DNA of 64,000 nt from Planctomycetota bacterium. GTDB lineage: Bacteria; Planctomycetota; Planctomycetia; Pirellulales; UBA1268. The notes under the pieces were generated by a model. The model was not told the origin of the DNA, ran no database searches, and saw only the letters and a list, made by a program, of their open reading frames with translations. Shown here piece after piece: positions 402 through 35,760 of this stretch. Both the position numbers and the translations under genes were made by a program. How positions within the stretch are numbered: position 1 is the first letter of the stretch; every line of letters starts with the position of its first letter. The stretch is taken from assembly GCA_016872555.1 (NCBI GenBank), contig VGZO01000010.1, forward strand, positions 1 through 64,000. The letters run 5' to 3'.

Positions 402-1502
402 TCACGGCTCGGTGACGTTCTCGCCCGAGTCGCGGCTGATCAGGGCATAGTAGATCGTCGGATCGATGTCCGACGACAGCGTTTTGACAGAACCGTCGCA
501 GTACGTGTGCATCACCAAGCCACCCGAGTGCTCGCTCGACGGGCCCCATGCGGAGTTACCAAGCGGGAACCGGGCGTACGCAGTGTTTGCCTGACCGACA
601 CGGGTCGTCGCCGCGGCGGACGGACCATACTGCAAGGCACAGTTGGCACCCGCTACGTTGGTCCAGACGCCGTTGACGAGCGTGGGCATGGCGGTCGAGT
701 CGCCGGACAGACCCGTCACATACGCACACGCCCCATCCATCCACGACGAGTTGCCACCTTCCTTCGACTCGGCGATGCAGATCGTCTTCGAGGTGCCGTC
801 CCGCATTGCGGCAAGGTTCAGGCCGAAGTAGGGGAGATTGTCGTTGGCTTCGTTGATCACCTTCGGGCTGCGGAACGGGATCGCTCCATTGTCGCCGATG
901 GTGCCATTCTCTTCCCGCTCACAAACACCGGCCATCCCCTTGTAGTTGGTGATGGCGACATTGGTGAGCCCACCGAGATTGGCCAGAAGCGACCGGTAGT
1001 TGCTCGACGTCGAGATCTGCGCGGTCGGCTGACCGGCAAAGCTGGGGCAGATCAAACCGGGGAGCTGGGTTTGATAGGCCGGGGTGGTCCCGACCGGACC
1101 GACGACGGTGTACACGTTGTTCGCCACGCCAGCCGAATTCAGCCGGGCGAAGCGATTGGAGTTGCTGGACAGCACGTTATAGAGATTCGCTTCCTCCATG
1201 TAGGGGAGGATGTGGACCAGCCAGCTGAATCCGGTGACGCCGGTGTTCGACATCGCAATTGCCGTCGAGGGCAACCGGTCGATCGCCGCCGGAAACGCCT
1301 TGCGGGCATCGTGGTGATTTTGCAGCGCCAAGCCGAGCTGCTTGTTCTTGTTGCTGCAATTGCTGCGGTTGGCAGCTTCACGAGCCGCCTGAACGGCCGG
1401 AAGGAGCAGACCGACGAGCGTGCCGATGATCGCGATCACGACGAGCAGCTCGACGAGCGTGAACCCACGCTTCGTACGGGCGGCCACCATTCCATGAGCC
1501 AT
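402..1502 (-). CDS. DUF1559 domain protein with prepilin-type N-terminal signal
   Basis: A 366-residue protein. Residues 12-35 form a type IV prepilin-type cleavage/methylation signal (RGFTLVELLVVIAIIGTLVG) with the +5 Glu and a long hydrophobic stretch, followed by the DUF1559 start LLPAVQAAREAANRSNC. The C-terminus has the family's closing motif (SSEHSGGLVMHTYCDGSVK), so the protein looks full length. These proteins are present in many copies in planctomycete genomes and are pseudopilin-like, exported and membrane-anchored; their function is unknown. It is monocistronic: a sigma70-like promoter lies upstream at 1639-1667 and a terminator at 311-349. Confidence 0.93.
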   Translation of the reverse strand: MAHGMVAARTKRGFTLVELLVVIAIIGTLVGLLLPAVQAAREAANRSNCSNKNKQLGLALQNHHDARKAFPAAIDRLPSTAIAMSNTGVTGFSWLVHILPYMEEANLYNVLSSNSNRFARLNSAGVANNVYTVVGPVGTTPAYQTQLPGLICPSFAGQPTAQISTSSNYRSLLANLGGLTNVAITNYKGMAGVCEREENGTIGDNGAIPFRSPKVINEANDNLPYFGLNLAAMRDGTSKTICIAESKEGGNSSWMDGACAYVTGLSGDSTAMPTLVNGVWTNVAGANCALQYGPSAAATTRVGQANTAYARFPLGNSAWGPSSEHSGGLVMHTYCDGSVKTLSSDIDPTIYYALISRDSGENVTEP

Positions 1503-23833: not shown

Positions 23834-24495
23834 CGCCCCCCCCCGGCTGCCGCCCGGGCGGCTTCCACCAGGGCCACGAGCCGGTCGGTCACTTCTTCGG
23901 GGTTGAGATCGTCGGTGTAAAGCTGGACCGCATCGGCGGCGATCCGCAGGGCGCCGATCGCCCGCCCCTGATCGTCGGCGTCGCGCCTTGCCAGATCGTC
24001 CATCACCTCGTCGAGCGTCGCCCCGGGGCGGTCCCGGAGGACGTCGCCGAGGCGGCGTCGGGCCCGCGTCGCCAGGCTGGCGGTGAGGTAGATCTTGAGG
24101 GCGGCGGCGGGAAACACGATCGTCCCCTGGTCGCGCCCTTCGGTCACCAGATCCTCCCCGGCCATTGCCTGCTGCCGGGCCACGAGTACCCCGCGGACCG
24201 CCGGGCAATCGGCGACCAGCTTGATCGACTCGTCGACCGCCCGGGAGCGGAGGGCGGGCCCCGGGTCGCGGCCGAACACCCGGACCGAACCGGGAGTGAA
24301 CTCGAGCTCCGGCGCTGCCGCCAGCGCCGCCAGCGCGACACCGTCGGTCAGGTCGACGCCACGCTCGAGCGCCGCCAGGGTCACCGCCCGGTACATCGCG
24401 CCGGTGTTGAGGTGCGGCCAGCCGAGCCGGTCGGCCAGCCGCCGGGCGGCGAGGCTCTTGCCGGAACTGGCCGGTCCGTCGAGGGTGACGATCAT
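23830..24495 (-). CDS. cmk: Cytidylate kinase
   Basis: 221 residues, the usual length for the enzyme that phosphorylates CMP/dCMP with ATP. Motifs: P-loop TLDGPASSGKSLAARRLA, LNTGAMYRAVTLAAL (CMP-binding), VTEGRDQGTIVFP (the GRDxGTVVFP motif) with KIYLTASLATRARRRL (lid Arg residues) and RRDADDQGRAIGALRIA. Start and stop overlap its neighbours by 4 nt each (ATGA), placing it between the GH38-C-like gene and plsC in one coupled leftward operon. In many bacteria cmk lies next to rpsA; here the S1-domain gene is 34 kb away. Confidence 0.95.
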   Translation of the reverse strand: MIVTLDGPASSGKSLAARRLADRLGWPHLNTGAMYRAVTLAALERGVDLTDGVALAALAAAPELEFTPGSVRVFGRDPGPALRSRAVDESIKLVADCPAVRGVLVARQQAMAGEDLVTEGRDQGTIVFPAAALKIYLTASLATRARRRLGDVLRDRPGATLDEVMDDLARRDADDQGRAIGALRIAADAVQLYTDDLNPEEVTDRLVALVEAARAAAGGGR

Positions 24496-27014
24496 CGGGC
24501 CTCCGGTGCCGGGGCGGGGTCGGGGAACCGCAGTTCGAGGAGCGACCACCCGTAGCGCCGGAGGTGGAACGTGGTCCGCGTTCCGGCCACCTCGACCCGG
24601 TCGTCCACGGGGCGGCCGAGGGCGTCGCAGAGCCGCGCCGCCGCCGGCGGGTTCGCCCACTCGAGCGTGACGTCTCCGCCCCGCCCGGCCGTTTCCACGA
24701 TTCCGACGACGATCCCCTCGCGCCGCCCCCCGTCGGCGACCGGCTCGATGACGGCCAGACGGACGTTGGCCGGGACGTTCCCCGCCGGTGCCCCCAATGC
24801 CGCCGCCGGATCGGCAGCGAAGGCCACGCCGAGGTCGCTGCCGTGGTCGAGCCCGAGGCCGACGGCGAGCGAAGCCTCGATCTGGCCGCCGGCGAGAAGG
24901 ATGCAATCGAGCATGTGGGGGCTCGATCGCAGGTGCCAGGGCAACCCCCCGGTGAGGATCGTGGCGCCCGATCCTGCCGGTGCCGCCGCCTCGGTGATCT
25001 CGAGGAAGTGGGGCGCCGAGAGAAGCGTCCGCTCGGTGATCACCGACTGCGTTGCCTGACTGCGGCGGAGGTCGACGTCGTCGTTCTCGTTCCAGGCGAA
25101 CCGGCAGCAGGCGTACGACGCGAACCGCTCCGTCTCGGCGCCGCTCGGCTCCGCCGCAAGCCCCTCGACGGTCACCGCAAGGCGGACCAGCGGCAGCTGC
25201 GGATCGAGTTCGAGACGCTGGACGAAGCGCCCCACCGTCCGCCGGTCGCGATCGAGACGGCCGCGGCTCTCGATCGCCCCCGGCGACAGCCGGGTGATCG
25301 ACTCGGCGACCATCGTCGTGTAGCGGGCGCGCTCCAGCGGATCCTCCCACGCGGCGCCTGTCGGCGGGGGCGGCTTCGTCGTCCGCAGGGCCAGTTGCTG
25401 CGTGAGGCGGTTGCCGCGTACGCCGCTGCGGCGCAGGGAGAGCATCCCGCCGGTCTGCGGATGGACACGGACCCGGATGCCGTTGCCCTCGAGGATCGTC
25501 CGGTCCGACGACGACCGCCGCCGGAACCAGCCCGCCAAGCCTCCCGGCCCACGCGCCGTCCCGATCCGCTCTGCCGGCCTCCGTGGCGCGCTGGCCGGGG
25601 CCAGCAGCTCCCCGAGGGCGCGCCGCTCCGCGGCGAGCCGGCCGGCCTCGTCACGAGCGTTGGCGAGCCGGGCCGCCAGCGCCGCCGGGATCGACGCTGC
25701 CGGCGGCAGGACCGGCGGGTAGGAGTCGGGTTCGAGGCTCACCGCGCCCCCGGCGCCGGCGGTGCGGCGGAAGAACTCCTCGGGAAGCACGAACGTCCCC
25801 AGGGCGGTGGTCCAAGACCCGATCCGGCGGAGCAGCGAGAACCATTCACTCGCGGTGCCGGCGTGGTGGGCGAAGGTCAGCACGGCAGTGTGGTCGTGAT
25901 CCATCGCGTCGCCGAGCCGTTCGGGTAGGCGGAGGATGGTGGCGGCGGCGCGGGCATCGAGCGGCGGCTTGGCGACCGCCTCGACGGTTCCTCCGCCCCC
26001 TTGCCAGCGGATCCGGCTGGCGCCCGGATCGGGCAGCGTCGTGCCGTCGAATTGCTGCCACACGGCCCCCGCGTAGCCGAGCTGCGCCAGCACCTGCGGG
26101 AGCAACGGATGCGTTCCTCCCCCGACGCGCGCGAAACACTGCGGCGCCGCGCCCACCACCTCCTGCCACGCCCGGCGGCCGCGGAGGAACGACGCCAGGA
26201 TCGTCTCCGGCGCCCAACCGTCGAGCGGCTCGTCGTCGTCACGCCCGCCGGCAGGCGCGATGCGTCCGGCGGCGACGGCCGCGCGGAGCCGCGCCGCGAG
26301 CGGCGGGTCGCTGGCGGCGAGGTGACGGAGCAGGTCGCCGGTGGCGACCGCCGTCCAGGGCGTCGGGCTGTCGAGCTCGGCGGCCAGCCGCGGTCCGAGC
26401 GTGGTCTCGGCCAGCAGCACGAGGTCGAGCAGCCAGACGTCGACCGGGTAGTAGTGGCCGCGTGCCGCGGCCAGCGTGGCGAAACCCTCGCCGAGGCGCG
26501 CCCGCGCCTCCGTTTCGTCGCCCGCCACCGCCGCCCGGGCCGCCGCGAGGACCGCATCGTCGAGCCCGCTCCCCCCCAGCGCCGACCCGGAGCGCATCCG
26601 CCGCGAGAGCAACTCCATCAGCAGCCACGCCAGGCCGAGGGCGTGAAAGTCTTCCACGAGCGGCGCGGGGGGGGCGGAGTCGATCCCGAGCGCCGCCCGG
26701 GCGGCTGCGACGATCGCTTCGCGGCCGCGCGTGTGCCGCACCCAGACCGAGCCAGGGGTGACGTTCGCCGCGAGGCTGGCGGCGATCCGCTCGTCGCAGG
26801 CCGGCGGCACGATCCCGAGCAGCGCCGTCCCGTCGTGGGGCGGCACCTCGGCGCTGGCCCAGGTCGGACTCCTGCCGACCGCGGCGATCAGCCGGGGATC
26901 CCAGGCCGCTGTCCAGGCGGCGAGCAGGTCGGAGGCATCGGGCTCGTCGAGCCACGTCGGGAAGTCCTCGAGCGAGTGGCAGGGGAGGAAAACGGCGATG
27001 CGTTCGATGGCCAT
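24492..27014 (-). CDS. Conserved large protein with GH38 C-terminal-like beta domain
   Basis: About 840 residues from the ATG at 27014 (MAIERIAVFLPCHSLEDFPT). The C-terminal half beginning near residue 490 (LEGNGIRVRVHPQTGGMLSL) resembles the beta-sandwich domain of family 38 alpha-mannosidases, including VRLAVTVEGL and the final FHLRRYGWSLLELRF. The N-terminal half has no HxDxxW-type GH38 metal motif that I can see; it carries PCHSLEDFP and is Ala/Leu-rich. There is no signal peptide. So it may be a cytoplasmic glycosidase relative with another catalytic set, or a non-enzymatic derivative. It leads the operon with cmk and plsC (4-nt overlap). Function is uncertain. Confidence 0.7.
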   Translation of the reverse strand: MAIERIAVFLPCHSLEDFPTWLDEPDASDLLAAWTAAWDPRLIAAVGRSPTWASAEVPPHDGTALLGIVPPACDERIAASLAANVTPGSVWVRHTRGREAIVAAARAALGIDSAPPAPLVEDFHALGLAWLLMELLSRRMRSGSALGGSGLDDAVLAAARAAVAGDETEARARLGEGFATLAAARGHYYPVDVWLLDLVLLAETTLGPRLAAELDSPTPWTAVATGDLLRHLAASDPPLAARLRAAVAAGRIAPAGGRDDDEPLDGWAPETILASFLRGRRAWQEVVGAAPQCFARVGGGTHPLLPQVLAQLGYAGAVWQQFDGTTLPDPGASRIRWQGGGGTVEAVAKPPLDARAAATILRLPERLGDAMDHDHTAVLTFAHHAGTASEWFSLLRRIGSWTTALGTFVLPEEFFRRTAGAGGAVSLEPDSYPPVLPPAASIPAALAARLANARDEAGRLAAERRALGELLAPASAPRRPAERIGTARGPGGLAGWFRRRSSSDRTILEGNGIRVRVHPQTGGMLSLRRSGVRGNRLTQQLALRTTKPPPPTGAAWEDPLERARYTTMVAESITRLSPGAIESRGRLDRDRRTVGRFVQRLELDPQLPLVRLAVTVEGLAAEPSGAETERFASYACCRFAWNENDDVDLRRSQATQSVITERTLLSAPHFLEITEAAAPAGSGATILTGGLPWHLRSSPHMLDCILLAGGQIEASLAVGLGLDHGSDLGVAFAADPAAALGAPAGNVPANVRLAVIEPVADGGRREGIVVGIVETAGRGGDVTLEWANPPAAARLCDALGRPVDDRVEVAGTRTTFHLRRYGWSLLELRFPDPAPAPEAR

Positions 27015-27102
27015 GGCCGCTTGAGTGTAATGACGATGGTGACGGTTTTCAGACGCCCCTGGGGGTGGAGCGGGGTGGCTCCAGGCACGCGGCCGGGCCG
27101 GT

Positions 27103-27132
27103 TTGACATCGCGCGAGGGGCGTTCGTAAAGT
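27103..27132 (+). promoter_or_regulatory. Sigma70-like promoter for the pilM cluster
   Basis: TTGACA (27103-27108) and TAAAGT (27127-27132) are separated by 18 nt. A start near 27139 leaves a leader of about 140 nt before the pilM ATG at 27279. The -35 is a perfect consensus and stands in the 264-nt gap between divergent genes. Confidence 0.6.
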
Positions 27133-27278
27133 GATTTCGGTGGGGAGTCGATGACCTTCACGGGCCCGCGCCCCCCCCGCTCCTCTCGTGCTCTTCATCT
27201 CTCCGGTCATCTCTCGGCAGGCCCGTTCCGGACGCCCGCACGGATTTCGCACGGAACTCGCACGGAAATTGAGTCCCC

Positions 27279-29564
27279 ATGGCTGCCAGTCCTTATGTCT
27301 GGGGCATCGACATCGGCAAGTGTGGCCTGAAGGCGCTGCGCTGCCGGGCCGGCGATGACCCGCGGACCCTCGTCGCCGACGCGTTCGACTACATCGAATA
27401 TCCGATGATCCTCACCCAGCCGGAGGCCGATCCGGTCGAGCTGGTGCGGGCGGCACTCCAGGACTTCATCGGGCGCAACAAACTCCGCGGCGACAAGGTG
27501 GCGGTCTCGGTTCCTGGGCAGTCGGGGTTGGCCAAGTTCATCAAGTTGCCGCCGATCGAAGCCAAGAAGATCCCTGACATCGTCCGCTACGAAGCCCGTC
27601 AGCAGATCCCGTTCCCACTCGATCAGGTGATTTGGGATTGGCAGCGCCTCGCCGGCGGGATCGAGGAAAGTGGCTTCGTCATCGATGCCGAGGTCGCCGT
27701 CTTCGCCATGAAGAAGGAGCAGGTGGCCAAGGCGCTGGCACCGCTCCAGGCGGCCGACGTCGACGTCGACATCCTCCAGTTGTCGCCGATCGCCCTGGCC
27801 AACATGGTGATCTTCGACCAGCTGCCCGACCCGGCGACCATCGATCCCGACAGCCCACCGGAGTCGGTCGTGCTGGTGTCGATGGGAGTCGATTCGACCG
27901 ATCTGGTGATCACCAATGGGCTGCGGATCTGGCAGCGCAGCATGCCGATCGGGGGCAGCAATTTCACCAAGGCGCTGGTCACGGGGATGAAACTGACCTT
28001 CGCCAAGGCCGAGCAGCTGAAGCGCAACGCCGTCCGTGCCGAGGACCCGAAGGCGGTGTTCAACGCGATGCGGCCGGTGTTCAACGAATTCGCGTCGGAA
28101 TTGCAGCGCTCGCTCAATTACTTCACCGGCTCCGATCGCACCGCCAAGATCGGCAAGGTGCTCCTGCTGGGGAATGCCGCCCGCCTCCGCGGCCTCTCCG
28201 ACTTCGTCGGCAAGCAACTCAACCTCGACGTCCAGCGTCTCGACACCTTTCGCGGCCTCGACGGCGCGGCGGTGACGTCGGCGGCCGCCTTCAAGGAGCA
28301 CCGCCTGGCGTTCGGCACCGCCTACGGACTCGCCCTCCAGGGGGTCGGTCGCGGCACGCTGGGCACCAACCTGCTCCCCGGGGAAATCCTCCGGGAACGG
28401 CTCATCGAGTCGAAGAAGCCCTGGGCGGTGGCGGCGATGGTCGGCGTGATCGCCGCGTCGGCGCTGAGCTTCATCGGCAACTACTCGGCGTGGACGACCT
28501 GGTCGCCGTCGCTCTACGACTCCGCCTTCAAGGCTGCCGACGGGGTCAAATCGGAGTCGCAGGCGGCGCAGTCCTTTTACGCCGACATGCAGAAGAAGCA
28601 GGAGGACGCGGTCGTCCGGCAGCAGGATTTCGTCAAGTTGCAGGACCGGCGTTTCCAGGTGCTCGACATGCTGCGCAGCGTCGAGTCGATCCTCCCGCAC
28701 GACGAACCGGGGGCGACCCCGGAAAGCCTCGCCGACCGGCGCGAGCTGCACATCGATTCGATGGACTGCCAGTACTACGCCGACCTCGATACCTGGTTTT
28801 CCACGGTCAAGGAAAAGTGGTCGGAGACGCACCCGTCGGAGGACGCCGAAGAGCTCGACGAAGGGCGCAGCGCGGCGCCCGCGGCCGAAGGCAGCGCGGC
28901 CCCCGGCGAGATCCAGGGGCCGAAGGGACCGGGCTGGGTGATCCAGCTTGTCGGCTACCACTACCACAACGAGGACCATCACAAGCCCGACCAAGGGGCG
29001 CAGTTCCTCCGCTCCACGATCATCAAGGGGCTGCTCGGCAAGGGGGACGAGGTCGCCGTCTCCGCCGGGCCGCTGGCCGGCCAGACCGTGTCGATCGGCG
29101 ATCTCGGCGTCGGGTTCCCGGTGATCGTCTCCTCGTCGCCTCTCAAGCCGGTTCCCAATCCACTCGCACCAGCCGGAATGCCGGGTGTGCCGGGGATGGG
29201 GGGCATGACCGGGATGATGCCCCCCGGCATGAACGCGCCCCCGGGAATGATGGCTGGTGGTCGGCCGTTCGGCGCTGGCGGTCGCCAGGGGGGGCGCGGT
29301 GCGGGGGCGCCGAAGGCGGGGGGCGAGAATGGCGGTGGACCGGCCGATGCAGGTGATCCCGCGCCCGGCAAGGATGCCGCACCCGGCGACGGCGGGGAAA
29401 CTCCCGGCGCCGTCGCCCAGGCCGGTGCCGACGGGCAGGGGCAACCGCCTGCCGTGTCGCCGATGGTGCGACGGTACGATTTCATCGTCCAGTTCGCATG
29501 GCAGCCGAAGGTGCCGGGGACCGAGAAACCGGCCGACGAGGCGGAGGGGGCTCCAGGCCAGTAA
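27279..29564 (+). CDS. pilM: Type IV pilus assembly protein PilM fused to a PilN-like membrane part
   Basis: 761 residues. Residues 1-370 are an actin-like PilM ATPase: VWGIDIGKCGLKALRCRAG (phosphate 1), KVAVSVPGQSGLAKFIKLPP, ARQQIPFPLDQVIWDW, VLVSMGVDSTDLVITNGLRI (phosphate 2), RSMPIGGSNFTKAL and KVLLLGNAARLRGL. In place of the usual end, a membrane helix (WAVAAMVGVIAASALSFIGN, about 380-402) and a coiled-coil then a compact domain follow, the architecture of PilN. A Gly/Met/Pro/Ala-rich linker near residues 625-725 interrupts the last domain, which ends RRYDFIVQFAWQPKV. PilM normally recruits PilN at the inner membrane; here both appear on one chain. First gene of a four-gene cluster. Confidence 0.88.
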   Translation: MAASPYVWGIDIGKCGLKALRCRAGDDPRTLVADAFDYIEYPMILTQPEADPVELVRAALQDFIGRNKLRGDKVAVSVPGQSGLAKFIKLPPIEAKKIPDIVRYEARQQIPFPLDQVIWDWQRLAGGIEESGFVIDAEVAVFAMKKEQVAKALAPLQAADVDVDILQLSPIALANMVIFDQLPDPATIDPDSPPESVVLVSMGVDSTDLVITNGLRIWQRSMPIGGSNFTKALVTGMKLTFAKAEQLKRNAVRAEDPKAVFNAMRPVFNEFASELQRSLNYFTGSDRTAKIGKVLLLGNAARLRGLSDFVGKQLNLDVQRLDTFRGLDGAAVTSAAAFKEHRLAFGTAYGLALQGVGRGTLGTNLLPGEILRERLIESKKPWAVAAMVGVIAASALSFIGNYSAWTTWSPSLYDSAFKAADGVKSESQAAQSFYADMQKKQEDAVVRQQDFVKLQDRRFQVLDMLRSVESILPHDEPGATPESLADRRELHIDSMDCQYYADLDTWFSTVKEKWSETHPSEDAEELDEGRSAAPAAEGSAAPGEIQGPKGPGWVIQLVGYHYHNEDHHKPDQGAQFLRSTIIKGLLGKGDEVAVSAGPLAGQTVSIGDLGVGFPVIVSSSPLKPVPNPLAPAGMPGVPGMGGMTGMMPPGMNAPPGMMAGGRPFGAGGRQGGRGAGAPKAGGENGGGPADAGDPAPGKDAAPGDGGETPGAVAQAGADGQGQPPAVSPMVRRYDFIVQFAWQPKVPGTEKPADEAEGAPGQ

Positions 29565-29755
29565 CGGCCGCACGACCGGCCCGTTGAAAGTCGGGGGCCT
29601 GCGGTTCGACGACACGAACGACCGGGTGATGCCAGGCGACGGCGCGCGGCGAGCGATTCGCTGCCGCCAGTGGCCGGCGAGTGGATTGCAAACGGCAACG
29701 GGGCGTCGCCACACACGGCACCGTCGATGCGTCGCGGAGATGGGAGAGTCGAGAC
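29565..29755 (+). other. Leader/intergenic region between pilM and the next cluster gene
   Basis: 191 nt without a supported gene. It ends in a purine-rich stretch (GGAGATGGGAGAG) ahead of the ATG at 29756, a likely ribosome-binding region. No clear terminator with a T-run is seen, so read-through from pilM is plausible. Confidence 0.4.
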
Positions 29756-31693
29756 ATGGTCCAGGTTCCGGAAGCCGTTCGCCCGTTCGTGGACTTTCTC
29801 GCGAAGTACCACTTCTGGCTCCTGGTGCCGCTTGTCCCCCTCATCGTGCTGCCGCTCCTGCTGCTGACCAACGGCCGTCTCGCAGCCGAGATGACCGCCG
29901 CCAAGGGGCAGATCGACAGCCGCTTGTCGGCTCTCAAGAGCGTCGAGGCGGTGCAGCCGCATCCCAACGAGCGGTGGAAAGGGGACATGACCCGCCGCGT
30001 GACGCGCGTCCAGCGCGAGACGCTCGCCGAATGGGAGAGCTTCTGGGCGAGCCAGGCGTTTCTCCGCCAGTGGCCCGCAGAGCTCGGCCCCGACTTCCTC
30101 CAGCGCGCCCAGGCCCTGAAGCCGGAAGGCAAGCTCCCCCGCCCGCTCCTCGAGCGCTACCAAAACGGCATCCGCGCGATCGTCCGCAAGCTACCGGCGC
30201 GGATGGGGGCCGACGAGATGATGCCCGACCCCGCCAGCGCGGGCGGTGGGTTCGGCCCAGGGATGGCGGGCGCGCCCGGCTTCGCCGGTGGTGGTGAATA
30301 CAGCCCTTACTCCCCCGATGCCTCGCAGGGCATGGGATTGGGCATGGGGATGATGGCCGGCATGCCCGGCGCCGGCCCGGCGGCCGCCCGCGGTCGCAAG
30401 GCCGCGACTGTCCAGTGGAGCCCGGCCGACCAGCAGCGGTTGTTCACGTCGTTCTTCTGGGAAGAGCCGCCGAGCACCAAGAAGGTGGTCCTCGCCCAGG
30501 AGGAGATCAACGTCTACGGCCTCCTGTGCGACGTCATCGCCCGGATCAACAAGGGCGCGGGGGGATCATACGACGCGCCGATCTCGACCGTCGAGCGGCT
30601 TGCCGTGGGGTATCCGGCGGTCGATGGTTCGCCCGAGAAGACCACGGCGGGACGGATGCAATCGCCCCGCGGTCGCGGTGGTGCCGGCGGCGCCGGCGGC
30701 GACATGTATGGCGGCATGGGAGGCATGGGCAGCATGGGGGGCCCGATGGGATCGTCGGGCTCACCGATGGGGGGCGGCGAGGGAGCTGACGCGGGCGGGG
30801 GCGGCGAAGTGAAGCCGAGTCACCCGCGCTTCCAGGGGCAGGCCGGCGGATTCGGTCCCGGTGCCTACGGCATGGGTTCGATGGTCGGCATCTCCGACGA
30901 CTCCGGAGGCGGCGCACCGGCGGCGCCGGCCAACACCGACGACTCGCTGCAGGAATGGATCTACGTCGACGGCGATGGCAAGCCGCTGACGGCCGAGCAG
31001 GTGAAATCGGCGTCCGGGCAGGTGGCCAGCCTGATGCCATTCCTGCTGCGCGGGATCGCCGATCAGCGGAAGCTCGACGCGATCCTCATCGAACTGGCAC
31101 GGGCCGATGTCCCGATCACCGTGCGCGAAATCCGCATCAACCCTTCGGCTTCGCTGGCCGGGGCCGGCGGGATGTATGGCGGCGGGCCGGCGGGGGCGAG
31201 TTCCCCGTATTCACCGGATGCCGGTGGTGGGGCTGGATATGGCATGGCAGGGCCGATGATGGGGATGGGCGGTCCTGGCGCGGGTGGGATGGGGCGTCCC
31301 AACGACGTGACGTTCGAGATCGCCGGGACCGTCGCGATCGCGCGGCGCCCGGATCCGAAGGCGCTCGGTATCGAGGAGGAAGCTGCCGAGCCAGGTGCCG
31401 CCGAGCCGGCTGCCGCGGAGCCCGAGCCGGCGCCGCCGCCAGCTGATCCGGTCGCTCCCTCCGATCCGGCTGCCGTTCCAGCCGCCGCGCCGGCTGCGGC
31501 GGATCCCAATGCCGCGCCTGCTGATCCGAATGCCGCACCGGCACCCGCGGCCGCCGAACCGCCGCCACCGCCGCCGAACGCTGCGGCCGCTCCACGCCGT
31601 TCGATTCGCGATCCCGGTCCCAACTCAGTGGTCAAGCAGCAGATTCATGTGACGACCGGTGCATGGTCCGATTGCAGGAGGATGGCGACATGA
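29756..31693 (+). CDS. Single-pass membrane protein with Gly/Met-rich linkers, PilM cluster
   Basis: 645 residues. One N-terminal membrane helix (FWLLVPLVPLIVLPLLLLTN, about 19-39) is followed by a helical, coiled-coil-like part (AAEMTAAKGQIDSRLSALKS), the layout of PilN/PilO-type proteins. Two Gly/Met-rich low-complexity stretches (about residues 160-230 and 300-400) flank a conserved-looking block (PADQQRLFTSFFWEEPPSTK). A further globular part contains LLRGIADQRKLDAILIELAR and ADVPITVREIRINP, which could be a ferredoxin-like PilO-type fold. The tail is Pro/Ala-rich. No named family recognised; role inferred from position. Its stop overlaps the next start (ATGA). Confidence 0.72.
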   Translation: MVQVPEAVRPFVDFLAKYHFWLLVPLVPLIVLPLLLLTNGRLAAEMTAAKGQIDSRLSALKSVEAVQPHPNERWKGDMTRRVTRVQRETLAEWESFWASQAFLRQWPAELGPDFLQRAQALKPEGKLPRPLLERYQNGIRAIVRKLPARMGADEMMPDPASAGGGFGPGMAGAPGFAGGGEYSPYSPDASQGMGLGMGMMAGMPGAGPAAARGRKAATVQWSPADQQRLFTSFFWEEPPSTKKVVLAQEEINVYGLLCDVIARINKGAGGSYDAPISTVERLAVGYPAVDGSPEKTTAGRMQSPRGRGGAGGAGGDMYGGMGGMGSMGGPMGSSGSPMGGGEGADAGGGGEVKPSHPRFQGQAGGFGPGAYGMGSMVGISDDSGGGAPAAPANTDDSLQEWIYVDGDGKPLTAEQVKSASGQVASLMPFLLRGIADQRKLDAILIELARADVPITVREIRINPSASLAGAGGMYGGGPAGASSPYSPDAGGGAGYGMAGPMMGMGGPGAGGMGRPNDVTFEIAGTVAIARRPDPKALGIEEEAAEPGAAEPAAAEPEPAPPPADPVAPSDPAAVPAAAPAAADPNAAPADPNAAPAPAAAEPPPPPPNAAAAPRRSIRDPGPNSVVKQQIHVTTGAWSDCRRMAT

Positions 31694-34134
31694 AAAAGCC
31701 GAAGGTCAGCCTCAGCAAGCGGGGAATCAGTGATTTTTTCCTCAACCACGGCGAGAAACTCGTCGTCGGCCTGTTCGCGATGCTCTCGCTGGGCCTGGTG
31801 TGGGGCGGCGTCGACGCCCTGCGGACCAAGCCGGTGACGCGTGAGCTGCTCCCGCAGGTGATGACCGAACAGGCGAACCGTTCCCGTGAGCACATTTCCC
31901 GGGAAAAAACTCCGCCCCCCGACACCACCAAGCGTCCGACCCTGGCGACCGTCATGGAGCCATGGCGTCAGCCGAGCATCGCTGATCGGCCACCGGCGAC
32001 GGTCTTCAACCGGCCGATCATCGAGCAGCGCAACAAGCGGTCCAAGCCGGAGGTCTACCCCATCGAGCGTCTCATCGCCGTGCCCGGTCAGGTGGTGGTC
32101 GCCCTCAAGCCCGACGAAGCGGCGGCGCTCGCGGCGGCGGCGGCCGAGCCTCGCGATGACGACGGCAAGGGAAAGCGCGGTACCGGCCGTGGACGTGACA
32201 ACGCTCCCGGTCGTGGCACGGGCGGCCAAGCCGACGGGGGTGCCGCCGACGGCCTCGGTGGCGGCGCCGTGGCAGGTCGCGGCGGTGGCGGTGCAGCGGC
32301 CGGCGTCCCCGGCGCCGGATCGGGCTATCCCGGGATGCCGGGCGGCTATCCGGGGGGCGAAATGGGCGGCGGCATGATGGGGGCCGGGGCGCCGGCGAAT
32401 CCCGTCGGCCGCGTCGTCCCGTACTGCGTCGTTCTCGGGCTCGTGCCGTGGCTCAAGCAGACGGAGGACTTCCAGGAACGGTTCATGGCCAGCTCCCTCC
32501 CCAATCCTCAGGGGGACCAGCCGGTCTGGGCCGACTACCTCGTGGAACGTGCGGAGGTCGGGCCCGACGGCTTGGGTCCGTGGAAAAAGATCGACCTCCG
32601 TGCCGCCTGGCGGCAGGCGGACAAGCTCTATGCCGGCATCGAACGCGATCAATTGCCCGCCGACTTCATCCTCACGCAGGAGATGGCGCCCGATCCCGAC
32701 CCGTCGCGGACGACGTTCGGCTACCTGACGCCGCTCCCACAACTCGCCGGCGATGTCTGGGGCCTGACCGCTGTCCATCCATGGTGCATCGAGACGATCC
32801 TCGAGCGCCAGGCGCGTCAGCGCCAGTGGGAGAAGGAGATGGCGGAGGCCGCCAAGGCGTCGAGCACGGCGCTGCGCGGGCAGACGTCGGGAGGGATGCC
32901 CGGGATGCCCGGAGGGTATCCCGGCGGCGCGGCTGGAATGCCGGGCGGCTATCCGGGGGGAGCTGCCGGCGGTATTCCGGGAGGGATTCCCGGCGGCGTC
33001 GGCGGCAGCATGGTGTCGGCCGATGGGGGCGGCTATCCCGGAGGGGGATCGGGCTATCCCGCCGGCGGTGCCGGGTACCCCGGGGGAGGCTCGGGTTACC
33101 CAGGGGGAGGCTCGGGCTACCCGGGTGCAGCCTACCCGGGTCCTACCGCGTCCGCGGGTGGCGGTGGTGGCATGGGGGGCGGATCGCCCCCGCGTGGCCC
33201 GCGCAGCACGAGCGTCGGGACGATGTCGGCGGGTGGCGGGGGCTCGCGTGGCGGCGGCGGAGCGCTCGGCGGCGGAGAGGCTGCCGGAGGAGTGCCGCCG
33301 TCGATGGGTGGCATGATGGGCGGAATGATGGGGGCTGGCATGGGCATGCCAGGGGCGATGGGCCCCGGGGGAGACGGTCGCCCAGCCGAGCCCACCGAGT
33401 ACCGGTTGTTCCGGTTCATCGACTACACCGTCGAGCCAGGCAAGTCGTACACCTACCGGGTGCGGGTTTCGGTCTTCAACCCCAACTACGACATGCCGGC
33501 GGCGCACCTCGCCGACGTCGGGCTGGCGAAGGATCTGAAAATCGCCTCCGAGACCAGCAACGAGTCGGCCCCGGTGGCGGTGCCGCGCGGGGGCGAACTC
33601 CTCGCCCGCACGCTTCCCTCCAAGGATGCCAAGCGGCTCAAGGGAGGCGTCGAGGTGATCCTCCTCGGCCTCGACCCCGCCGATGACGAGACGACGATCG
33701 GCAGCAGCGCGCTGCGGAGCGTCATCACCGACGTCGGTGGCTTCGCCAACGTCGACAAACGGCTCAACAAGGGGGGCGACCAGCGCGCCCGGGGCGAGGA
33801 CCTCGCCACCGACGCACTGCTCGTCGACGTCCGTGGTCGCCAGGAGGAACGGAGCGACTCGAAGGTCAAGGAGCCGGCCGAGCCGTTCGATCTCCTGTTC
33901 CTCCGTTCCGATGGATCGCTGGAGTTGGTGGTCCCCGACGAGACGGTCATCCCGGTCAACCAGTTCATCGCCACGTTGTCGGGGGAAACCGGTGCCCAGT
34001 CCCCGGCGACACAGCCCGGACCGTTCGGCGGGGGATTCGGGAATCCCTACGGAGGCTCGCCGGGAAGCGGTCCGCCGGGGTCGTCACCGGGCGGTCCGCC
34101 GGGCGGGCCGTCACGCGGGCGCGGGGGGAAGTGA
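31690..34134 (+). CDS. Membrane-anchored Gly/Tyr/Pro-repeat protein, PilM cluster
   Basis: 814 residues. The ATG at 31690 overlaps the preceding stop and has AGGAGG upstream. A short basic N-terminus and one membrane helix (KLVVGLFAMLSLGLVWGGVD, about 20-38) are followed by a periplasm-facing part. Residues about 190-240 and 398-560 are Gly-rich with repeated GYPGG/GGIPGG units. Between and after are folded blocks: PYCVVLGLVPWLKQTEDFQE and, near residue 575, EYRLFRFIDYTVEPGKSYTY followed by RVRVSVFNPNYDMPAAHLAD, which looks like a fibronectin/Ig-type beta domain. The end is again Gly/Pro-rich. No named family; a membrane-tethered structural component is the inference. Confidence 0.72.
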   Translation: MKKPKVSLSKRGISDFFLNHGEKLVVGLFAMLSLGLVWGGVDALRTKPVTRELLPQVMTEQANRSREHISREKTPPPDTTKRPTLATVMEPWRQPSIADRPPATVFNRPIIEQRNKRSKPEVYPIERLIAVPGQVVVALKPDEAAALAAAAAEPRDDDGKGKRGTGRGRDNAPGRGTGGQADGGAADGLGGGAVAGRGGGGAAAGVPGAGSGYPGMPGGYPGGEMGGGMMGAGAPANPVGRVVPYCVVLGLVPWLKQTEDFQERFMASSLPNPQGDQPVWADYLVERAEVGPDGLGPWKKIDLRAAWRQADKLYAGIERDQLPADFILTQEMAPDPDPSRTTFGYLTPLPQLAGDVWGLTAVHPWCIETILERQARQRQWEKEMAEAAKASSTALRGQTSGGMPGMPGGYPGGAAGMPGGYPGGAAGGIPGGIPGGVGGSMVSADGGGYPGGGSGYPAGGAGYPGGGSGYPGGGSGYPGAAYPGPTASAGGGGGMGGGSPPRGPRSTSVGTMSAGGGGSRGGGGALGGGEAAGGVPPSMGGMMGGMMGAGMGMPGAMGPGGDGRPAEPTEYRLFRFIDYTVEPGKSYTYRVRVSVFNPNYDMPAAHLADVGLAKDLKIASETSNESAPVAVPRGGELLARTLPSKDAKRLKGGVEVILLGLDPADDETTIGSSALRSVITDVGGFANVDKRLNKGGDQRARGEDLATDALLVDVRGRQEERSDSKVKEPAEPFDLLFLRSDGSLELVVPDETVIPVNQFIATLSGETGAQSPATQPGPFGGGFGNPYGGSPGSGPPGSSPGGPPGGPSRGRGGK
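32881..33150 (+). repeat. Imperfect Gly/Pro/Tyr-coding tandem repeat
   Basis: Within the 814-residue protein the DNA repeats imperfect units of about 15-24 nt coding GYPGG, GMPGG, GIPGG and GGSGYP. The clearest run (33020-33130) has three near copies of a unit coding GSGYPGG. In-phase multiples of three imply expansion under coding selection; it is not a CRISPR-like or intergenic array. Confidence 0.75.
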
Positions 34135-34200
34135 CGCACCGTCGTCGGCGGGTGGTGAAGGGGTCGAGCGTTCGGTCAGCGGGTTCCGGAGGACCGCGTG

Positions 34201-35760
34201 ATGTCGTGCTGCGAGTGGCAAACCGGTCGTTGGAATGGACGGTCGGCGCGGTGCCCGGCGCCGTGGATGCTCGCCGCCGTGACGCTCCTCGCCGGCGCGG
34301 TGGGTGCCGGCCCGGCGCCCGGCCAGGAACACGGCGCCGGCGCGGCGGCGGCGGGGATCACGCTCCCCGATCCGGCGAAGGCCCCGTGGCTGAAGCTCGA
34401 AGCGGCGATCGAGAAGTCGTACCGCGAGCCGCTCAAGCAGGGTGGGGCGTTCGAGCCGGCGGTGAAGGAATACCTCCAGAGCACCGTCGTACCGCAGCTG
34501 GCCCTCGAGGACAACCGGGCGATCATCGACCGGGTGCGCAAGCGGATGCGCGATCTGCTCCTCGGCGGGATCACCGACGACAAGGCGTTTGAAGCGGCTT
34601 CGGCGGCGGCCCTCGAGGCGATGGACGCCCTGGCCCGCGACGGCCAGGAGCCGCTCGCCGTGCGCGTCAACGCGATGCTGTTCATCGGGGAGATGCGCCA
34701 GAAAGACAATCGCGAGGGGAAGGTCTGGCCGAAGGCGGCCGATGCGCTGGCGAAGGCGGCCGCCGACCGCACGCTCCCCCCGGCCGTCCGCGTGGCCGCG
34801 ATGGCGGGGCTGGCCCGGCAGGCCGACACGGCCAAGGCCGCCGGTGACGCCCGGGTGACCGAGTTCACCCGCGCGGCACGCGGCGCGCTGCAGGGGATCC
34901 TCGGCGAGAAGCCGGAGGGGTCCGACGCGGTCGCCGTCGACTGGCTGGCAGCCCGGGCGCTGGCGATGCTCCCTGGCCTGACGAAGAACACGAGCAAGGA
35001 ATTGGCGGGCGCCGTGGCGGCGATCCTCGCTGACCAGTCGCGTCCGATCGACGTCCGGGTCCGGGCCGCGGCGGCCCTGGCCGCGATCGCCGGCCCGAAG
35101 TCGGAGGTCGACCCGATCGCGCAGGTGAAGACGATCCGGGCCCTGGCCGTCGAGTCGCTCGGGTACGAACTGGCGATCGCCGACCGGCAGCGGTTCGAGG
35201 ATGACTACCGTGCGATGGCGGGCGGGCGGCGCCGGTTCGCCCCCAAGCCGGTCGCTCCCGCTGCCGGGGGCGCGGCCTTCGGAGGCTACGACCCATCGGG
35301 GGTCGGGCTCAGTGCTCCGACGCCGGGCTTTCCCAGTGGCGGCAGTTCCGGCGAGTCGGGAGCCACACTCGGAGGCGGTGGCTATCCCGGTCTGCCGGGG
35401 ATGTCGGCCGGTCCCAACGACCCGGTGGCCGACTACGTCACCGAGCCCGCCTGCCGCCGGATCGCCTGGCGGCTGCACGCCTTGGGCGATGCGATCGTTT
35501 CCGAGAAGGGTGCCGGCCTCGGCAGCCTGCCCGGCGCCGAGGCGGACGCCGACAAGGAACTGGCAGAACTGCTCCGCGAGCACGCGGCGACGATCGCCGA
35601 CGAGCTGACCGAGAAGTCGGTGCGCGACGCCCTGGCCGCCCTCGACGGGAAGGAGCCGGACGCCGCCGACAGTGACACACCCGATGCCAAGCCGGGTGCG
35701 AAGCCGGCCACGAAGCCGGGCGACAACGAGCCGGACGACTCGTCCCCCTTCGGCAAGTGA
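34201..35760 (+). CDS. Exported helical-repeat protein, last gene of the PilM cluster
   Basis: 519 residues from the ATG at 34201 (the GTG at 34198 is directly adjacent); GGAGG lies about 9 nt upstream. A signal-peptide-like segment (PWMLAAVTLLAGAVGAGPAP) follows a Cys/Arg-rich start. Residues about 60-330 are Ala/Leu-rich helices with HEAT-like spacing (LAVRVNAMLFIGEMR, AVRVAAMAGLARQADT, DVRVRAAAALAAIAG). A Gly/Ser/Pro-rich stretch near 340-405 echoes the linkers of the upstream proteins, and a last helical block plus a Lys/Pro tail end the chain. No named family recognised. Position and shared composition suggest a periplasmic partner of the PilM platform. Confidence 0.72.
   Translation: MSCCEWQTGRWNGRSARCPAPWMLAAVTLLAGAVGAGPAPGQEHGAGAAAAGITLPDPAKAPWLKLEAAIEKSYREPLKQGGAFEPAVKEYLQSTVVPQLALEDNRAIIDRVRKRMRDLLLGGITDDKAFEAASAAALEAMDALARDGQEPLAVRVNAMLFIGEMRQKDNREGKVWPKAADALAKAAADRTLPPAVRVAAMAGLARQADTAKAAGDARVTEFTRAARGALQGILGEKPEGSDAVAVDWLAARALAMLPGLTKNTSKELAGAVAAILADQSRPIDVRVRAAAALAAIAGPKSEVDPIAQVKTIRALAVESLGYELAIADRQRFEDDYRAMAGGRRRFAPKPVAPAAGGAAFGGYDPSGVGLSAPTPGFPSGGSSGESGATLGGGGYPGLPGMSAGPNDPVADYVTEPACRRIAWRLHALGDAIVSEKGAGLGSLPGAEADADKELAELLREHAATIADELTEKSVRDALAALDGKEPDAADSDTPDAKPGAKPATKPGDNEPDDSSPFGK

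Follow-up and report, generated by a model that had tools for sequence, protein, structure and literature searches.

The window analysed here is a stretch of 64,000 nucleotides from a bacterium of the phylum Planctomycetota (Pirellulales, UBA1268; GenBank assembly GCA_016872555.1, contig VGZO01000010.1, positions 1 to 64,000). It carries a cluster of four genes, here called A to D, all on the + strand between positions 27279 and 35760 and each with a GC content at third codon positions (GC3) of coding type, so that the four-gene arrangement of an original prediction, made from the sequence of this locus, is real. Gene A (27279..29564, 761 amino acids (aa)) encodes a PilM domain fused to a PilN-like membrane and periplasmic part, as judged from its open reading frame (ORF), profile matches and orthologues. 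Gene B (29756..31693, 645 aa) encodes a PilO/Amuc_1100-type single-helix membrane protein with three Gly-rich insertions (ORF, hydrophobicity, predicted fold, profile comparison), and gene C (31690..34134, 814 aa) a membrane protein with one helix that occupies the place of PilP and has a predicted fibronectin-III (FN3)-like domain and long Gly-rich loops (ORF, predicted fold, profile comparison). Gene D (34198..35760, 520 aa, start uncertain) encodes a predicted exported, helical, HEAT-like protein (ORF, orthologues). The best explanation of this cluster, which we consider probable, is that A-B-C constitute the inner-membrane alignment platform of a divergent and dispersed type IV pilus-type machine, with D as a family-specific accessory.

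The start of B was taken as the ATG at 29756 and is uncertain, an in-frame GTG being present at 29681. The stop codon of B and the start codon of C share the ATGA at 31690-31693, and this predicted coupling by a 4-bp overlap recurs in 16 of 28 relatives.

The predicted PilM-PilN-like fusion and its putative partners

The PilM domain of A covers residues 9-354 and exceeds the cut-offs of both pilM models, i.e., Pfam PilM_2 (124.7 bits, cut-off 27) and TIGR01175 (147.8 bits, cut-off 133). It is followed by the sequence motif NLLP (residues 364-367; 28368..28379, +), by a transmembrane segment, which is the sole segment detected in A by hydrophobicity (residues 381-402; 28419..28484, +), and by a periplasmic part. 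In type IV pili, an NLLP-type motif belongs to the cytosolic PilN tail binding PilM, and as both this motif and the helix come after the PilM domain, A reads as a PilM fused to a PilN-like part, as originally predicted. The Pfam PilN profile gave no match in A, nor in the genome at E 1, and this profile also misses several control genomes. A did not match GspL, and no second PilM was found in the genome. Against the Amuc_1101 family (NF045709), A scores 194 bits, under the model's equivalog cut-off of 650 bits, and a deep planctomycete A scores 262 bits almost end to end. The profile of A reaches the Akkermansia member of this family at E 2e-37.

B possesses one N-terminal hydrophobic segment. 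Its AlphaFold2 model, much of which is disordered, retrieved Amuc_1100 at ranks 1-10 in Foldseek and PilO at lower ranks; with VIA, Amuc_1100 reached a Z of 10.2 over 177 residues, PilO of Pseudomonas 6.6 and PilO of Myxococcus 6.3. The model hence combines a single helix with a ferredoxin-like periplasmic domain like that of PilO and Amuc_1100. The relationship is also supported stepwise by profile-profile comparison with hhalign, leading from the family to the class (100%), from the class to the deep lineages (97.6%) and from these to Amuc_1100 (94.6%), while direct comparison of the family B profile with the Amuc_1100 profile gave no match. Control comparisons of B with C profiles mostly stayed below 10%, the exceptions of 16% and 44% covering short N-terminal stretches. 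The Amuc_1100 query used for fetching the Akkermansia loci was confirmed to be identical to PDB 6kny. A and B are homologous to Akkermansia Amuc_1101 and Amuc_1100, respectively. No convincing match came from sequence-profile searches of the PDB with B, C or D; the best one for B, a human transcription factor (E 0.004), was dismissed, as it aligns through the low-complexity linker.

C also has one N-terminal hydrophobic segment, in agreement with the prediction of two single-helix membrane proteins. Its predicted model reaches FN3 folds (Z 8.2), a deep C homologue carries the Pfam fn3 domain, and hhalign links C from the family to the deep lineages with 100, 99.8 and 96.4%. A Pfam search with 22 C orthologues found no family. 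As modelled, C is a membrane-anchored FN3-like protein in the PilP position. The structure prediction proposed for the second and third proteins thus relates B to Amuc_1100 and then PilO, and C to FN3.

For D, no hydrophobic segment over the threshold was found, but the N-termini of its relatives resemble signal peptides, in most cases lacking a lipobox, and 3 of 21 D orthologues match HEAT_2 (Pfam), which agrees with the proposed exported helical protein. A role of D as pilotin-like lipoprotein was rejected because a consistent lipobox is lacking. D would thus be a family-specific periplasmic accessory that is predicted to be exported.

Conservation and Gly/Met/Pro-rich stretches

In the family of the window, for which as for the other taxa draft genomes were used, A is held by 56 of 60 genomes. 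A-B-C stand in order on one strand in all 28 family loci read, 27 of which also contain D; in the 28th the contig ends inside C. The order is likewise present in 8/8 loci from the same order and class. Among 196 genomes from the phylum, 152 contain a match to the A profile, although the lowest-scoring matches might belong to different actin-like proteins. The A-B-C arrangement predates the family, in which the four genes form a real conserved unit, and the neighbourhood survey that had been proposed as a check rules out a random association in relatives. D stands beside A-B-C only in the family of the window: weaker D homologues are placed elsewhere in 3/3 relatives of the order and 2/5 relatives of the class tested, and none were found beyond these, so that D was rejected as a member of the ancestral operon. 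That all four genes are neighbours by chance and share no function has next to no probability, because A-B-C keep their order across the family and the order and class relatives, often with 4-bp overlaps, and B and C keep order and homology down to the deep lineages; this is already contradicted for A-B-C, and only for D, adjacent in this family alone, might it apply.

All four proteins contain Gly/Met/Pro-rich windows. A carries an insertion at residues 611-720 (29109..29438, +), ahead of its last conserved stretch; the windows lie at 141-210, 291-380 and 461-530 in B, at 161-250, 381-580 and 761-810 in C, and at 361-410 in D, where the signal is weak (0.53). Across the 28 family loci, windows of 40 residues with at least 50% G+M+P occur in 66 of 111 cluster proteins and in 1 of 102 neighbouring genes, and among the orthologues in 11/28 of A, 23/28 of B, 20/28 of C and 12/27 of D. 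The low complexity had been predicted for all four components and is indeed cluster-specific, wherefore the GC content of the genome was rejected as its sole cause. Where B and C were modelled, the parts of low complexity and low confidence do not form a spacer after the helix but sit between strands of folded domains: in B they precede the final strand of the C-terminal domain, and in C they lie inside the FN3-aligning region. Since B and C of deep relatives are compact (median 340 and 437 aa) and for the most part devoid of rich stretches, the Gly-rich loops look like later expansions, as far as the sequences tell.

Upstream of A, a sigma-70-like promoter match is located at 27103..27132 (+; TTGACA, 18 nt, TAAAGT), which agrees with the consensus at 10/12 positions. 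The single promoter of the original prediction hence has a counterpart, but the evidence is weak, with two matches found in the 9-kb region vs 0.4 expected. A gene divergent from A (24492-27161, -) has a weak glycosyl hydrolase 38-like match; by sequence, this gene and a cytidylate-kinase-like gene behind it recur beside A in relatives of the order and class (L143 11739-14552, L146 454-3345).

Secretin, motors and prepilins outside the locus

A secretin was not found near A-B-C in any family locus read. In contrast, 20 of 40 more distant PilM loci encode a secretin on the same strand no more than 5 kb away from A, and in 18 of these loci it lies downstream. The four of these secretins analysed with Pfam show TPR-type repeats and a secretin domain, and the two analysed with NCBIfam score against PilQ, MshL and the Amuc_1098 family. 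The secretin of the family is a lone gene beside the succinate dehydrogenase (sdh) genes; its homology to the secretins of the distant clusters extends over 593 columns. When the order-mate G236 was searched with it, the best match was the gene that immediately follows C, with 70% identity in the C-terminal domain, which by sequence makes it most likely that the PilQ/Amuc_1098-type partner has been detached from A-B-C in the lineage of the window. In 3 of 12 family members, among them L106 (7323-10271), the detached secretin also has a Gly-rich stretch, so that the outer-membrane partner shares in the loop expansion. In the genomes of L164, L165, L171, L172, L176 and L179, two or three secretin genes share a stretch with the PilM cluster (as examples, G128:C297 at 82-89 kb and G115:C33 at 95 and 104 kb), which suggests multi-pore operons in deep relatives.

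Moreover, the genome possesses a motor cluster encoding two PilB-type ATPases (627-632 bits, just under the cut-off of 675.65), a PilT-family ATPase (477.9 bits, cut-off 319.1), a PilC/GspF (T2SSF) protein and several N_methyl prepilins, and in addition about 39 DUF1559 prepilin-like genes. This DUF1559 expansion, together with the gene content, points to Planctomycetota. The components of a type IV pilus gene set, i.e., PilB-type, PilT, PilC, prepilins and secretin, are therefore all present in the same genome. The original statement that PilP, PilQ, PilT and pilins are missing is true at the locus, but secretin, PilB, PilT, PilC and prepilins are encoded elsewhere. One of the roughly 39 DUF1559 (PF07596) prepilin-like proteins is encoded in the window at 402-1502 (-); they are candidate fibre subunits. 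A pair of further T2SSE-family ATPases at G000:C5:55742-58245, possibly Tad-like, recurs in family members.

The proposed platform, its alternatives and its possible role

The pilus- or secretion-like assembly originally proposed is supported, in the form of a pilus/secretin-type one, by the pilM models, the fold of B, the secretins of the distant loci and the motors and prepilins of the genome. Standard pilN/pilO genes elsewhere would have spoken against it, but there is neither a second PilM nor a PilO or PilN profile match in the genome. For the machine, we propose that A contacts the PilB/PilT/PilC motor through its cytosolic PilM domain, that A and B pair in the periplasm via their PilN/PilO-like domains and that C reaches from the inner membrane as far as the PilQ/Amuc_1098-type secretin with its detached gene. 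The machine would guide an N-methylated (pseudo)pilin fibre, which is extended and perhaps retracted, through the outer membrane. This assembly with its contacts, as well as the roles of D and of the Gly-rich loops, is inferred from the genes and models described above.

Several observations weigh against this explanation. The Foldseek E value for B is modest, only about 0.03, and the Pfam PilO profile misses B and has no match in the genome. Furthermore, hhalign relates C to Amuc_1099 with only 0.2-0.4% for every planctomycete C set, C has no Pfam match to PilP, and no solved PilP was among the fold matches listed for C, which was folded whole. The search for the secretin gave no match in 2 of 18 family genomes, possibly due to incomplete assembly. 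The PF00263 search reported only the secretin of G000:C36 (L098 6844-9813), but another secretin-like homologue, truncated where its contig stops, is present at G000:C6:71-2857 (-). The genome therefore cannot be said to have just one secretin, and the machine may have a choice of pores. The motor genes lie on contigs other than that of A-B-C, so that their pairing with the platform is putative, and the fibre itself is a prediction. Finally, the family secretin scores 78.9 bits against GspD and 77.8 bits against PilQ.

The last point leads to the main rival, a type II secretion-like platform in which A, B and C correspond to GspL, GspM and GspC and which exports proteins via the secretin with a short pseudopilus and without surface fibre. 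The fusion of a cytosolic and a periplasmic part seen in A is also found in GspL, and not only the secretin but also the motor ATPases and the GspF/PilC protein score almost equally on pilus and type II models. The type IV pilus-type platform is favoured because A is over the pilM cut-off and does not match GspL, because the fold relatives of B are Amuc_1100 and PilO, and because a PilT-family ATPase is over its cut-off in the motor cluster; type II secretion is hence unlikely. It is very improbable that a different machine, such as an envelope tether or pit scaffold, has borrowed PilM/PilO-type parts and assembles no fibre. Classical pili have no counterpart of D, of an FN3-type C or of the expanded Gly-rich loops, all of them features of the lineage, and the motors are unlinked, but deep relatives have a secretin linked to the cluster, the family has retained its orthologue, and motors and many prepilins are present.

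With the Akkermansia cluster Amuc_1098-1102 (MUL2), the platform shares the order of a PilM-PilN-type protein (Amuc_1101), an Amuc_1100-type protein and a third single-helix protein, and as in deep planctomycetes, the secretin Amuc_1098 is located at the cluster end. In contrast, the locus in the window lacks the upstream pilin-like gene Amuc_1102, its C cannot be related to Amuc_1099, and its lineage has detached the secretin, added D and acquired long Gly-rich loops. The type IVa system (PilM-PilN-PilO-PilP with PilQ) has in common the PilM domain, NLLP, the PilO-type fold, the gene order and the secretin partner, and PilB/PilT/PilC and prepilins are found in the genome here; it differs in that PilM and PilN are fused here, C is FN3-like without PilP homology found, and the genes are dispersed. 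The type II system (GspL-GspM-GspC with GspD) resembles it in the fused platform protein, the secretin and a GspE/GspF-like motor, whereas here GspL/GspC model matches are lacking, PilT is present and B is closest to Amuc_1100 and PilO. As the core is common to Verrucomicrobiota, to which Amuc_1101 and Amuc_1100 belong, the claim of a planctomycete-specific assembly is wrong in the strict sense; what distinguishes the lineage of the window is that its loops are expanded, C is of the FN3 type, the secretin is detached and D has been added.

The Akkermansia cluster has been described as a locus for mucin utilization that includes a type IV-like pilus for attaching to glycans (PMC13174399), and an envelope-enriched fraction contains its proteins in abundance (PMC5332112). 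By analogy, it might be speculated that the planctomycete fibre serves macromolecule attachment and uptake, as proposed for that cluster. The crateriform structures of planctomycetes join both membranes and carry dextran-binding fibres, and carbonyl cyanide m-chlorophenyl hydrazone (CCCP) blocks uptake (PMC5394234). In Planctopirus limnophila, three pilQ-like genes can be deleted together, the available text of that study reporting no uptake phenotype (PMC11958385). A putative link to the crateriform pits is plausible and, in view of these studies, attractive. The further-reaching idea that A-B-C and a PilQ-type secretin form the membrane-spanning core of the crateriform structure and power the uptake of macromolecules by fibres, the Gly-rich loops and D having been added in planctomycetes to suit an enlarged periplasm, is possible but doubtful.

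These results bear on how planctomycetes get large molecules past the outer membrane and on which machinery forms their pits and fibres. They identify a phylum-wide candidate platform, name its likely detached secretin partner and tie it to the Amuc_1100 cluster. The function proposed, in surface fibres or in the uptake of macromolecules, has become testable, as there is now a short list of genes to delete in culturable planctomycetes. If the crateriform structure indeed had this core, planctomycetes would use the same type of machine for macromolecule uptake as Akkermansia uses for mucin.

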